From Acidobacteriota bacterium (GTDB lineage Bacteria > Acidobacteriota > Polarisedimenticolia > J045): a stretch of DNA of 47,303 nucleotides. Where the stretch lies: NCBI GenBank assembly GCA_003696075.1, contig RFHH01000074.1:1-47303 (forward strand). The letters run 5' to 3'. The translations under genes and the position numbers were made by a program. The number at the start of each line of letters is the position of its first letter. The stretch's first letter is position 1. Shown here in pieces: positions 1-47,303 of this stretch. The notes below the pieces were generated by a model. It was not told the DNA's origin. It worked only from the letters and a program-made list of their open reading frames with translations, and ran no database searches.

Positions 1-505
1 CGGTCAGGAACCGTGCCAACGCAGGCCCGGCGCCGAAAACGCACCGCGAAGGAAGCACCTCAGACGCCGCGACCGACCACCGGCCCCCAGCGCCACCGTC
101 GCCCCTATCGCCGGAGCTCCGCCCGCCACCCGATGCTCCTCCAGGACGCGAGACGTTCCGCGCGCCGCGCATCTCTGCTCCGCCTCGCGTATGGGCGCGC
201 TGGCTTGACGGCCGCCCGGGCGAGGAGGGAGGGTGTCGCTCGGCACCTTTACATCCGGGCACAGCCGGAGCCATTCGGCTAGGCCTCGCGGTGCGTGCTC
301 GGAACCCGTTGGGGGTGCGGAGGAGCGAGTCTTCCGCGACGCCCATCTTCGTTGCCTTAGGGTTTCCAGAAATCTGTCGCGCGGTGATCCGAGTCCTCGG
401 ATCCAAAAATTCGGAACCTGTTGCGATGACCCGATTGCCGGCGTAGCAACAGCCCAGAATCCGCAGGTTAGCGGCGTTGGCGTGACCGGTAGGAGGGTGG
501 GATCC
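1..505. other. Leader region with no convincing gene
   Basis: No reading frame here has both a ribosome site and protein-like composition; the open frames are Arg/Pro/Ala-rich and look like by-products of high G+C. The right half (about 340-500) is clearly less G+C-rich than the left and leads into the Cys-rich secreted gene. It holds a near-perfect palindrome at 386-403 (arms GATCCGAG/CTCGGATC, 2-nt loop) and a weaker inverted repeat GTTGC/GCAAC at about 420-450. The left edge may be the end of something outside the window. Confidence 0.5.
421..449 (+). promoter_or_regulatory. Possible sigma-70-type promoter for the Cys-rich gene
   Basis: TTGCGA at 421-426 and TAGCAA at 444-449 are separated by 17 nt, about 55 bp before the ATG at 506. 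Both boxes are imperfect. The same bases also form a GTTGC/GCAAC inverted repeat, so this is only a candidate. Confidence 0.3.
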
Positions 506-2618: not shown

Positions 2619-3284
2619 CAGGGACGCCGATCTTCGTTCCGAAGGGCGGAGGCCAGGGTCGGTGCCGGCCGGGAGTGACGTGCGGTCCGGCCGGCTCCGC
2701 GGATCCACGCAGAGCTTCCGGCCGGCCGGCGCCGCGAAGCGCGCGGGACAGATCGAATCGGCCGGTTCTCGCCCGGGCGCGGATCGAGGCGAAGGACGAT
2801 CCTCCGGCAACCCCGCGCATTCGTTCCGAAATGCATCCCCAATGGTGCGTCGTTCCGCCGAGCACGTTGGAGGATCGGAGGATCCGATGTCGAAGGGACC
2901 GATGCCGGGGATCGGGCCGAGGTGTTCGTTCCTCATCGGGTTGCGCGGCGATTCGCACCATCGAGGGAGCATCTCTCGTTCCCTCGGTTGCCGGCGGCCA
3001 CGCGCTCTCCTGGGCGCGCCAGCGGCTGGGCGAGCCGGCCTCGGGGCGGGCGCTCGTTTCTCCGCGCTCGCGGCCGTGGCGATCGGCACGGCCCCGGGAC
3101 ATTCTCTTGCGAAGGCGCGGTCCGCGGCGAGGGAAGGGGTCGTGCGGAAGCGGTCGCTCGCGGACGTGCGGAGACCGCCGGTGACCGCGAGATGGATGGC
3201 GCGCACGGCGGATGTTTTCGCCGGACAGGCTCCTCGCGGCCGGATGGCTCGAAGGCCCGGCCGCCGGAGGAAGGGGATGCCTCG
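2619..3284. other. Gene-free stretch holding a dispersed repeat
   Basis: No convincing coding frame was found. The region contains one complete copy of the 145-147 bp inverted-terminal element (2831-2975, listed separately). Of the rest, 2619-2830 and 2976-3284 are G+C-rich with no recognisable gene, terminator or promoter, apart from the ribosome site of the small gene at 3285. Confidence 0.55.
2831..2975. repeat. Dispersed 145-bp inverted-terminal element, copy A (REPIN/MITE-like)
   Basis: The left end (2831-2860) reads ATGCATCCCCAATGGTGCG..CGCCG. The right end (2938-2975), read on the minus strand, begins with nearly the same sequence (TGCTCCCTCGATGGTGCG..CGCCGCGCA). The centre is alignable with the copies at 12956-13102 and 47015-47160, with shared blocks such as GGGATCGGGC and GTTGGAGGA. 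TCGTTCC occurs at both flanks (2821-2827 and 2976-2982), but the other copies show no matching target duplication. It has no coding capacity. Confidence 0.8.
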
Positions 3285-10241: not shown

Positions 10242-10778
10242 TCAGGGGCCGTCGCGCCCCCCGGCACGGGGAGCCAGGCTCGGGACCAGGAGAAAGACCC
10301 CGGCCACGAGGAGAAGGTCGGCGACGTTGAAGATGCCCGTCCGGAGCGGGCCGATACCGATGCTCACGAAGTCGCGCACTCCCGGAAGCAGGAGCCGGTC
10401 GATCAGGTTGCCGAGGCCGCCGGTGACGATCAGCGAGAGGGCGGCCAGCTCGGCGGGCCTCAGGCGTGGGGCCGCGAGCGCGTAGCCCGCGGCGCCCACC
10501 ACGAAGGCCGAGACCAGCCCGACGAACAGGGCGAACCGGACCGTGGGGGGAAGGGAGGCGCCGAAGCTGAGGAAGGCGCCCTTGTTCAGGACGAACTCGA
10601 ACCGCACCGCACCGAACAGGAACTCGACGGGAGGGCGACCGGCGAGCCAGTGGGCCGCCGCCACCTTGGCCGCCTGATCGACCGCGAGTCCGGCGGCGGC
10701 GACGGCGCCGAGCACGGCTGCGCGGTGCCGGAGGCTCCGGCGTCTGTCCTGGTCCGGCCTGCTTCCGGCAGGGCTCAC
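10242..10778 (-). CDS. lspA: Lipoprotein signal peptidase II
   Basis: The product has 178 residues. GTG 10778 forms a GTGA overlap with the stop of the propeller-protein gene and gives the expected length. Motifs of the aspartyl membrane protease are intact: DQAAK (34-38), NKGAF.FG (65-73), GGLGNLIDR (120-128, catalytic D127) and FNVADL (150-155, catalytic D154). Four transmembrane helices are visible at about 20-40, 78-102, 108-125 and 145-167. It cleaves the signal peptide of diacylglyceryl-modified prolipoproteins in the inner membrane. Its usual partner ileS is absent; instead it is translated downstream of an exported propeller protein. Confidence 0.95.
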   Translation of the reverse strand: MSPAGSRPDQDRRRSLRHRAAVLGAVAAAGLAVDQAAKVAAAHWLAGRPPVEFLFGAVRFEFVLNKGAFLSFGASLPPTVRFALFVGLVSAFVVGAAGYALAAPRLRPAELAALSLIVTGGLGNLIDRLLLPGVRDFVSIGIGPLRTGIFNVADLLLVAGVFLLVPSLAPRAGGRDGP

Positions 10779-12451
10779 AGGCAGGCCGGCGTGTCGTCGA
10801 ACGGATCGCGGGGATCCGGATGGTCGGTGCCGCTGCCGAAGCTGCCGTCTCCACGCGGACCCTGGGCGCGGATCAGCACGTACAGGGCGTCGCCGGCGGG
10901 CGGCAGGTCGGGCAGCTCGGCCGGCGGGGACGGCAGGTCCTCGTAGCGGCAGGAGGCCCGCTGGGCGGCGTCGGCGCTGCCCAGGTCGGACACCATCCCC
11001 GTCACCACGTCGTAGACCACACCGGAACCGGTGCGGGGCTCCTGGTCGTCCCAGTCGACGGTGACGCGGTCGGGCCGGAACGCGACGCCTGAAACGATGT
11101 CGTAGTCGAACACCGGTTCCCGCTCGACGTAAACGTCCTCCTCGCCGGTTCCCGCCCGGAGATCGGACCAGAACGGGAAGAGATTGCCATGCCCGGCGGC
11201 GAGCGCGGCGTAGTCGCCGAGAAACCCGGTGAGCGATCCGTCGGAGGCGAGATCGGTGACGCGGAGGTTCCGGTCGAAGGTCGCGCCGCCGTCGCGCGAG
11301 GTCGCGATGCGGATGTGGTAGTCGCGGTTGTCGGGATCCTCGCGACGGTCGTGCCACATCAGGTGGACGTAGCCGTTCTCGTCGACCGACATCCACGGGA
11401 AGAACTGATCCCGCCCATTGCCGACGGGATCGTCGTTCACGCGGCGTGGCGGGTCCCACGTGTTCCCCCCATCGGTGGACCGGGTGAAGTAAATGTCGGG
11501 ATCTCCGTTGCGGTTGTCGGCCCAGGCGACGTAGACCGTGCCGTCGTAAGGACCGCCCGAGGTGTCGATCGCCGCGGTGGGGAAGGAGTTGCGGCGGAAG
11601 GTCGAATCGGGGATCGGTGTGATCGAGGCGACGACGCCCGGAGCGCCGAAGTTCGCCCCGCCGTCGAGGGAGTGCGCGAACCCGATGACTCCGTTGCCGC
11701 GCCAGAAAACGTAGACCTCGCCGTCGCGGCCGGCGACCGGGATCGACCCCTGCACGCCTCCGTTCCCCGAGACGGGAGTGCGCCCGTTCCAGGTCTGCCC
11801 GTGATCCGACGAATACGCGACCACGATCGGGGAGGTTCCGAAGCCGATCTGGGTCCAGGAGAGGTAGGCGCGGTTGGCATAGGGAGACCCGTCGTCCGGG
11901 GCGCAGGCGATGTACGGCTTGTCCGCGAAGGGCGTCGTGCCCTGGTAGGCGACGCCGGGGCCGACCCAGCTCTGGCCGCCGTCCACCGAGTGCGCGCTGA
12001 TCAGCCGGTGAGGCTGGTAGGCGCCGACGTAGTCCAGGTAGGCGTACACGGGGATCCCGTCACCGCAGAAGGCGACGGTCGGATCGCCCTGGTTCGGGTA
12101 CTTGCGGAACGGCATCAGGCCGTCCGTCCAGGTCCGGCCGCCGTCGTGCGAGACGTAGACGCCGGCCCCCCAACTGCCCGAGCGGGCGTCGTTCGCGCCG
12201 CCGACCAGGTAGCCCGGATCGATCGGGCTGACCGCGATCGTCGTTTCGTTCTGGTCCCGTCCCGAGCTGTCCTGGTTGACGCGCACGTTCGTCCCCGCGC
12301 CCGCCGCTTCGAGGGTCTGGGGCGTGGTCGGGGGGTCGTAGGTGATCACCGGCCGGTCGGGGATCGCCGTCGGAGGGGGTACGAGCGCGGCGGCCGCCGC
12401 CGCGGCGAGACCCGCGGCGAGCGCGAGCGCGAGAAGGCGGATCGGATTCAT
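10775..12451 (-). CDS. Exported Asp-box (BNR/sialidase-like) beta-propeller protein
   Basis: The product has 558 residues. ATG 12451 is preceded by GGGAGG and opens a signal peptide (core about 6-23, Ala-rich cleavage region). At least six Asp-box motifs of the S-x-D-x-G-x-T-W type are visible: SHDGGRTW, SVDGGQSW, SSDHGQTW, SLDGGANF, STDGGNTW and SRDGGATF. These mark the loops of a six-bladed sialidase-like propeller between about residues 60 and 410. I see no clear Arg triad or catalytic Tyr, so true sialidase activity is doubtful and a carbohydrate-binding or structural role is as likely. The last 120 residues form a separate domain ending in a Pro/Asp-rich tail. It overlaps lspA by 4 bp. 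Confidence 0.85.
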   Translation of the reverse strand: MNPIRLLALALAAGLAAAAAAALVPPPTAIPDRPVITYDPPTTPQTLEAAGAGTNVRVNQDSSGRDQNETTIAVSPIDPGYLVGGANDARSGSWGAGVYVSHDGGRTWTDGLMPFRKYPNQGDPTVAFCGDGIPVYAYLDYVGAYQPHRLISAHSVDGGQSWVGPGVAYQGTTPFADKPYIACAPDDGSPYANRAYLSWTQIGFGTSPIVVAYSSDHGQTWNGRTPVSGNGGVQGSIPVAGRDGEVYVFWRGNGVIGFAHSLDGGANFGAPGVVASITPIPDSTFRRNSFPTAAIDTSGGPYDGTVYVAWADNRNGDPDIYFTRSTDGGNTWDPPRRVNDDPVGNGRDQFFPWMSVDENGYVHLMWHDRREDPDNRDYHIRIATSRDGGATFDRNLRVTDLASDGSLTGFLGDYAALAAGHGNLFPFWSDLRAGTGEEDVYVEREPVFDYDIVSGVAFRPDRVTVDWDDQEPRTGSGVVYDVVTGMVSDLGSADAAQRASCRYEDLPSPPAELPDLPPAGDALYVLIRAQGPRGDGSFGSGTDHPDPRDPFDDTPACL

Positions 12452-12500
12452 GGGAGGCCTCCCGGGGTGGGGCCGGAATGTACCGCGAACCGGGATGGCG

Positions 12501-12517
12501 AAAAAGGAGGGCCTCCT
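12501..12517 (-). terminator. Possible weak intrinsic terminator
   Basis: Read on the minus strand, AGGAG-GCC-CTCCT is followed by TTTTT. The stem is only 5 bp. It would end minus-strand transcription reaching the propeller/lspA operon from upstream, or act in its leader. Confidence 0.3.
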
Positions 12518-12921
12518 CAGCAAGGCGCCCAAGCAAGGCGCCCACCCGACGGCGCGCCAGCGCCGCCCGAGTCGATGAAGGCACGGCCGTTCGCGGCCGC
12601 CTTTGCGGAAAGCGGGCGATCCGACACCGAAACCTCCGCGCCCTCAGAAGGTTGCATGGAAAAGGCGCACCGCCGGGGCTGCACCCCGCGTCCTTCGCGG
12701 CCCAGCCCGCCCGCCTTTGCCGGAACGACTCCCCTCGGAGAAGCGTGGCGGCGCGCGCCCGGTCGCCGCGCCGAGGCCCGGATGGGAGGCGCGAACGCCG
12801 GACGGTCGGAAGCTGCATCTCCGAGGGTGCGCTCTCGCATCCAATCCCCTGAGCGCTCGGTGGTCGGGGTCTCGCATCGCCCGATGGCCGCGAGATCGGC
12901 CCGAAGTCTCCAGGTGGCGGT

Positions 12922-12953
12922 GAGTTGCGCGGTGTTCCGCACCACCGGGAGTG
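12922..12953. repeat. Solo repeat arm (REP-like), part of the dispersed element family
   Basis: GAGTTGCGCGGTGTTCCGCACCACCGGGAG matches the right arm of the dispersed element (GGTTGCGCGGCGTTTCGCACCATCGAGGGAG) with a few changes, but has no left arm of its own upstream. It lies 2 bp before the complete copy at 12956, so this is a tandem cluster of a single arm and a full unit. Confidence 0.65.
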
Positions 12954-12955
12954 AG

Positions 12956-13102
12956 GTGCATCCGCAATGGTGCGTCGGGCCGCCGAACTCGCGGCATGAA
13001 AGGAGGTTGCGGTCGCGAACGGATCGATGACCGGGGATCGGGCCAAACTGTCCGCCCTACATTGGGTTGCGCGGCGTTTCGCACCATCGAGGAAGCACCT
13101 CC
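12956..13102. repeat. Dispersed 147-bp inverted-terminal element, copy B
   Basis: The left arm GTGCATCCGCAATGGTGCG...CGCCG is at 12956-12985. The right arm GGGTTGCGCGGCGTTTCG...CACCTCC is at 13064-13102 and is its inverted counterpart. The centre shares CCGGGGATCGGGCC and GTCGCGAACGGA-like blocks with copies A and C. Length agrees with copies A (145) and C (146). Confidence 0.8.
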
Positions 13103-13440
13103 CATCGGAAGAGCACCTCCGCGCCGGTGAGCGATGAAGCGTCCGGCCGGGGATGGGCCGCGCCGGCCGGGGCGGGAGGTGCGCTGGCCTTCGCCGAATC
13201 GCGGGCGCCGCGCCCCGGCCCGGTGTCGAGTGGGCGCCACCCTTTCCGGCGCGGAAGACGCGCCCGGAGGAGCCGTCCACCCGGCGGCCGAGCGCCCCGC
13301 CGGGGGAAGGCCCCGGCGCCCTGCCGTGACCGATCGGCCCCCGCCTGCATCCCTGGGAACGGGCGCACCGCCGCGGCGGTCCGCCCGGCGGGTGCGGGCC
13401 GCGAGATGCGGGCCCCGCCGCACCGAGGAGACTCGACACG

Positions 13441-46937: not shown

Positions 46938-46971
46938 CGCGGCCCCTCGCCTCCCGGGGCGATGGGCCGCG
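46938..46971 (+). terminator. Hairpin terminator after ftsX
   Basis: The outer arms CGCGGCCC (46938-46945) and GGGCCGCG (46964-46971) enclose inner arms TCGCC (46947-46951) and GGCGA (46958-46962), separated by one C/T mismatch. It begins 6 bp after the ftsX stop. It is a long G+C stem without a U-tract, like the other hairpins in this window. Confidence 0.6.
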
Positions 46972-47014
46972 TCGAAAGCGCGGAGACCCGTCTCAACCGC
47001 TCATCGGTCGTGGT

Positions 47015-47160
47015 GTGCATCCCCAATGGTGCGTTGTTTCGCCGAAGTCGTTGGAGGACGGAAGGATCCGGTCTCGAACGGACCGACGCACACGATCGGG
47101 CGGAAGTCATGGTTTCTCAACGAGCTGCGCGGCGTTTCGCACCATCGAGGGAGCACCTCC
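47015..47160. repeat. Dispersed 146-bp inverted-terminal element, copy C
   Basis: The left arm GTGCATCCCCAATGGTGCG...CGCCG is at 47015-47044. The right arm GAGCTGCGCGGCGTTTCG...GCACCTCC is at 47122-47160 and is inverted relative to the left. The internal part shares GTCGTTGGAGGACGGA and CGATCGGGCGGA-like blocks with copy A. Confidence 0.8.
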
Positions 47161-47224
47161 CGGAGGTGGCGGACCCGGATGCCCTGGCGCCCGCGCTTTC
47201 GGGTCGAAGTTTCGATCCGACATC

Positions 47225-47303
47225 GAGCTGCGCGGCGTTTCGCACCGTGGAGGGAGCCCTTCTATCGGTCGAATGGTGCGTCCGCGATGGTGCAAATCGA
47301 CGC
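47225..47303. repeat. Partial copies of the dispersed element, cut by window end
   Basis: A right arm (GAGCTGCGCGGCGTTTCGCA..., 47225-47263) has no full left partner within 147 bp upstream. It is followed immediately by a left-arm-like ATGGTGCGTCCGC (47273-47285) and another ATGGTGC at 47287-47293. This is a cluster of arms that may continue beyond the window. Confidence 0.65.

Follow-up and report, generated by a model that had tools for sequence, protein, structure and literature searches.

An old MITE family from a draft genome of the Acidobacteriota, very probably mobilised in trans, whose ends appear to rebuild their own insertion target

The window, a stretch of 47,303 nucleotides analysed here at full length, is contig C74 of a draft Acidobacteriota genome of 3.29 Mb in 231 contigs that is 98.6% complete. 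It carries several copies of a short repeat whose intergenic position, already proposed in the first-pass annotation, fits the Pfam-supported neighbours within the window (BNR, FtsX, aldo/keto reductase and CarboxypepD_reg). The BNR-repeat gene occupies 10775-12532 on the minus strand, and one decayed copy lies directly upstream of it. The elements of the window are as follows.

1..61, plus strand: right end of an insertion sequence or of its apparent 357-bp derivative, 100% identical over 61 bp (positions 297-357), with the contig broken inside it
2818-2826 and 2977-2985: 9-mers flanking copy 1, CATTCGTTC and CGTTCCCTC, 6/9 alike
2828..2975, plus strand: MITE copy 1, 148 bp
12536..12686, minus strand: strongly decayed MITE copy (E 8.6e-9, 25.8 bits)
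12810..12951, plus strand: main part of an older MITE copy, including the "solo arm" reported at 12922-12953
12943-12951 and 13103-13111: 9-bp duplications of copy 2, CACCGGGAG and CATCGGAAG
12953..13101, plus strand: MITE copy 2, 149 bp, nested within the older copy
13112..13119, plus strand: last 8 bp of the older copy (AGCACCTC), displaced by the nested insertion
47012..47159, plus strand: MITE copy 3, 148 bp, with flanking 9-mers 5/9 alike
47161..47260, plus strand: right two-thirds of an older MITE copy (model positions 49-147)
47273..47303, plus strand: start of an end-like fragment that agrees with the transposon end at 17/22 positions and is truncated where the contig stops

The three full copies of like length recognised at first pass are real, but their bounds had been drawn a few bases short; they run from 2828 to 2975, from 12953 to 13101 and from 47012 to 47159. 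The inverted arms, previously put at about 30 bp, are well conserved over only ~22 bp, which we take as the terminal inverted repeats (GAGGTGCATCCCCAATGGTGCG / CGCACCATCGAGGGAGCACCTC). The 22-bp arm GCGGCGTTTCGCACCATCGAGG gave four matches with at most three mismatches, against 0.00 expected, and all ten window stretches matching the transposon left end at 17 or more of 22 positions are ends or fragments of these elements. What had been described as a cluster of arms at 47225-47303 is mostly the right two-thirds of the older copy at 47161-47260, followed by the fragment that the contig end cuts off. In an alignment of 40 copies (length 147–151, mean column identity 82%), the invariant and near-invariant bases cluster at both element ends, and arms and centre occur together as a single unit of constant length. 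The units of 148–151 bp fall within the ~100–400 bp usual for MITEs, carry no gene and are far too short to hold a transposase.

The 9-mers around copy 3 match poorly because its left flank aligns with contig C31 and its right flank with contig C208. Within 46948-47246, the left part matches C31:1-222 (94%) and the right part C208:1076-1314 (86%), the switch falling inside the MITE; it could reflect recombination between copies, a duplication, strain variation or an assembly join. At the end of another contig, a MITE copy at C148:30799-30947 is flanked by a near-perfect inverted repeat of ~40 bp; the element may have landed in a palindrome, or the assembly may fold back on itself there.

The high copy number suggested by the four window sites was borne out genome-wide. 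A BLAST search with a single copy as the query returned 54 matches in the genome, and a profile built from 40 copies matched at least 150 places, some of which are both strands of the same copy. The pattern of the element end, allowing up to three mismatches, occurred 314 times against 39 for the reversed-pattern control. From 407 kb of fetched DNA we collected 134 distinct copies, 100 of them near full length; these loci were selected for holding elements, and the array and duplication statistics given below rest on them. BLAST did not find the repeat unit in 99 relatives, and the strict paired-end pattern had no match in genome_contigs or viral_contigs, where exact patterns would miss decayed copies.

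Comparison of the flanks at offsets from 5 to 14 gave a signal at a single offset: a 9-bp direct repeat, located one base away from GAGGTGC...GCACCTC on each side. Across 39 copies, identity between the two 9-bp flanks was 0.67 per site, whereas shuffled partners had a mean of 0.377 and a maximum of 0.444 (0/1000 shuffles). When the set was widened to 99 copies, at least 7/9 matches were seen in 32, against 1.3 expected (maximum 6). These repeats are target-site duplications, now decayed. Only about one-third of all near-full copies show a clear duplication; in the others, age or recombination may have erased it. When copies are ranked by score, mismatches in the ends and in the duplications increase together with element divergence from the best to the worst, as expected of elements that ceased to move at different times and drifted afterwards. 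A selective constraint that would have kept the ends too well for the age of the duplications was considered and dropped: among copies with a recognisable duplication, end mismatch was 0.12 per site against ~0.09 per lineage from the duplications, both rising together.

An insertion can be followed directly at copy 2. Deleting the copy at 12953-13101 together with one 9-mer joins position 12951 to 13112, and the rejoined older copy matches model positions 5-149, reaching the correct last base, with its score rising from 57.1 to 65.9 bits. The arm that had been reported to stand alone at 12922-12953 thus belongs to the 3' end of this older copy, which is nearly complete once its two parts, 12810-12951 and 13112-13119, are put together, and which the element at 12953-13101 had split. 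The restored empty site demonstrates an insertion and removes solo arms as the main argument for a REPIN.

The genome's contig breaks hold a multicopy insertion sequence with the same ends as the MITE: the MITE ends match its left end at 20/22 positions, with no internal homology. This left end, GAGGTGCTTCCCCGATGGTGCG, is found with a transposase start at contig ends, and the right end, GGAAGCACCTC, is preceded at other contig ends by a transposase C-terminus (...TPEELFGRRRFPDLVGLPASYRKAYERKLRARPKEKLPAA). At C151:1-740, a degenerate copy preserves the N-terminal part of the transposase, which is 40% identical to a 382-aa homologue from a same-family genome. The insertion sequence was pieced together from these contig ends and the degenerate copy, and the assembled bin contains no intact transposase gene of full length. 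Another candidate transposase, at C151:6838, was rejected after it proved to be a degenerate remnant surrounded by nested MITEs. A 357-bp element located at many contig ends carries both GAGGTGCTTCCCCGATGGTGCG and GGAAGCACCTC and opens with the transposase start MTRRR...PPFCPxSPCRAHR. Taken together with the C-terminus beside the same right end and the N-terminal fragment at C151, this suggests that the 357-bp element arose by internal deletion from the insertion sequence, whose own interior is collapsed or missing in the assembly. At C94 the 357-bp copy is flanked by a perfect 9-bp duplication (CGTTCTTCG) that lies in register with those of the MITEs; three of the four complete 357-bp copies have no obvious duplication. 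In practical terms, the MITE and insertion sequence elements are associated with many contig breaks of this draft genome.

Homologues of the transposase have a zinc-ribbon, a helix-turn-helix and the conserved motifs D...TDEEP...SER. One of them matched the NCBIfam IS1 model (NF033558) with E 7e-7 and 29.4 bits, where the cut-off is 100, and weakly matched Pfam HTH_Tnp_IS1 (E 2.5e-4, below the curated cut-off). The remaining homologues and the genome's own transposase fragment had no IS1 match and nothing convincing in curated family models. The predicted structure of a homologue was too poor for use (pLDDT 41), and a plasmid tblastn search with a homologue gave no match. We regard this enzyme as representing an unclassified, weakly IS1-like family, probably of DDE type. 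Its nearest named relatives come from Acidobacteria MAGs, which makes an acidobacterium the most likely source of the window. Among these MAGs, members of the transposase family have no curated match above cut-off, and in one genome (probably Go_SlDig_bin_260) they lie at many contig ends. Since the homologues pass no curated family cut-off, a new insertion sequence family may be hiding in Acidobacteriota.

The first-pass annotation had proposed a new REPIN/MITE-like family. It is indeed new, high-copy, MITE-like and, judging by the neighbours in the window, intergenic, but the part of the proposal that has REP/REPIN units moved by a RAYT fails. In a REPIN, two REP palindromes would form a pair that a RAYT (Y1/HUH) transposase mobilises in single-stranded form as one unit, and the inverted arms, the intergenic position, the high copy number and some seemingly single arms are all compatible with this. 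Yet the copies are flanked by 9-bp target duplications, which HUH/Y1 (IS200/IS605-type) transposition is not known to leave. The single arm at 12922-12953 belongs to a split copy, arms and centre keep together at constant length, and the transposon residing in the genome with the same ends has a probable DDE transposase. The expected Y1-type (RAYT) gene with the same arms was not encountered either: no Y1_Tnp (PF01797) match was obtained in the 98.6%-complete genome, in a search that was positive in 5 of 14 control genomes, including E. coli. We therefore regard a REPIN as very improbable. The question of REPIN versus MITE is settled here by marks of mechanism, namely the duplications, the restored empty site and the parent transposon, and not by counting arms.

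The arms could also have been retained for base pairing in a structured RNA family or an attenuator-like regulatory repeat, and the folds of single copies are indeed somewhat more stable than those of shuffled sequences (z −1.4 to −4.0). However, the consensus fold pairs the ends only, its covariation term contributes −0.19 of −16.1 kcal/mol, the pairs hardly vary, an Rfam search gave 0 matches, and the copies decay along with their duplications. The pairing structure follows from the inverted ends, the compensatory changes in paired positions expected of a structured RNA are all but absent, and the transcribed RNA that the first-pass annotation had named as an alternative is hardly credible.

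Returning to the MITE, the 26 copies with a recognisable duplication define the preferred target CN[CRNNNNNYG]NG, in which the 9-mer itself reads C R N5 Y G. In the flanking genomic DNA, C stands two positions ahead of the 9-mer in 23 of 26 copies (P = 3e-8) and G two positions beyond it in 19 of 26 (P = 2e-4); in the same copies, the positions immediately beside the 9-mer (−1/+1) show no enrichment. The element ends, ...CTC-N and N-GAG..., put C and G at exactly these target positions, so that every new insertion regenerates a target to its left and to its right.

As this regeneration predicts, half of the close neighbour spacings (12/24) are exactly 11 bp, that is, 1+9+1; with the C-N and N-G flanks of the target restored by the element ends, neighbours come to share one 9-mer at this distance. 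Consecutive 9-mers within arrays are 0.66 identical, compared with 0.374 when shuffled (0/5000). The best example is the C171 array, in which CAAGCCGTG / GAAGCCGTC / CAACCCGCG / CAAGCCATG stand around three copies. At C31:65-855, five consecutive MITE copies are separated by 11-bp spacers with a period of ~160 bp. Simple tandem duplication of the element plus its 9-mer, or unequal crossing-over between such units, might also have produced these arrays, in place of repeated insertion into the same target. The last three members of the C31 array are 88–93% identical and in the same orientation, and this part of the array may include duplication; the first two copies are diverged and opposed. Against duplication as the general origin, most array neighbours are just 53–66% identical and some are opposed (C31 + −, C171 + − +), yet they have the same 9-mer. 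Strong divergence, sometimes with opposed orientation, indicates separate insertions in most arrays, and we consider tandem duplication an unlikely source of the arrays as a whole.

Repeated insertion into a restored target can be arranged into a simple scheme. The transposase of the co-resident insertion sequence would recognise the ~22-bp MITE ends and move the MITEs, making a 9-bp target duplication on insertion with a preference for CN[CRNNNNNYG]NG. The C and the G of the motif, each two bases out from the duplicated 9-mer, would come from the element's own ends, which would thereby rebuild the target on both sides. Later copies could then insert into the same 9-mer, giving arrays with exactly 11-bp spacers, and copies would decay once inserted. 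With the ends, the duplications, the target motif, the nesting, the 9-mer-sharing arrays, a transposase-bearing element with the same ends and the absence of Y1 all read from sequence, we hold it very likely that this is an old MITE family, mobilised in trans by a co-resident insertion sequence transposase, with 9-bp duplications and a self-restored target that builds arrays. The mobilisation would have taken place in trans, and its activity appears to be past rather than present. We see in the repeat a MITE family that is new but of an already known kind, and whose habit of forming arrays is unusual and well supported. It provides a clear bacterial case in which element ends appear to restore their own target consensus, which both predicts and explains the stacked arrays. 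More tentatively, and at somewhat less than even odds, the transposase could belong to an undescribed Acidobacteriota insertion sequence family whose ends evolved to complete their own target motif, creating two fresh targets per insertion and arrays of 160-bp period with one 9-mer, possibly with a resident end-bound transposase guiding new copies beside old ones.

Duplications of ~9 bp are typical of the IS1 family, and to this likeness is added the weak, below-cut-off match of one homologous transposase to the IS1 profile; in contrast, the other homologues are unmatched, a single long ORF of ~380 aa is present here, and the ends differ. REPINs, which are attributed to Y1/HUH RAYTs (PMC3116915), likewise consist of paired inverted repeats that are extragenic, high in copy number and sometimes clustered, but the present family has target duplications, and its genome yielded no Y1 gene. 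In plants, transposable-element arrays are described as built by self-targeting (PMC5907723), and, as far as that description goes, they are similar in forming modular arrays via repeated insertion into a local target; a microsatellite serves as the target there, in place of the duplicated 9-mer that flanks the element itself here. The nearest counterpart so far described is MITEAba12 of Acinetobacter, a 111–114 bp MITE with 9-bp duplications and ends in common with ISAba12, for which the duplication is kept in 40% of copies, movement was observed and no target sequence trend was seen (PMC6382973). Both are short gene-less bacterial MITEs with 9-bp duplications, identity to the parent insertion sequence at the ends alone and proposed mobilisation in trans. 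The ends of MITEAba12 (GGCTTTGTTGCACAAA) are unrelated, its movement was observed where ours is deduced, and the family described here adds a target motif and stacking.
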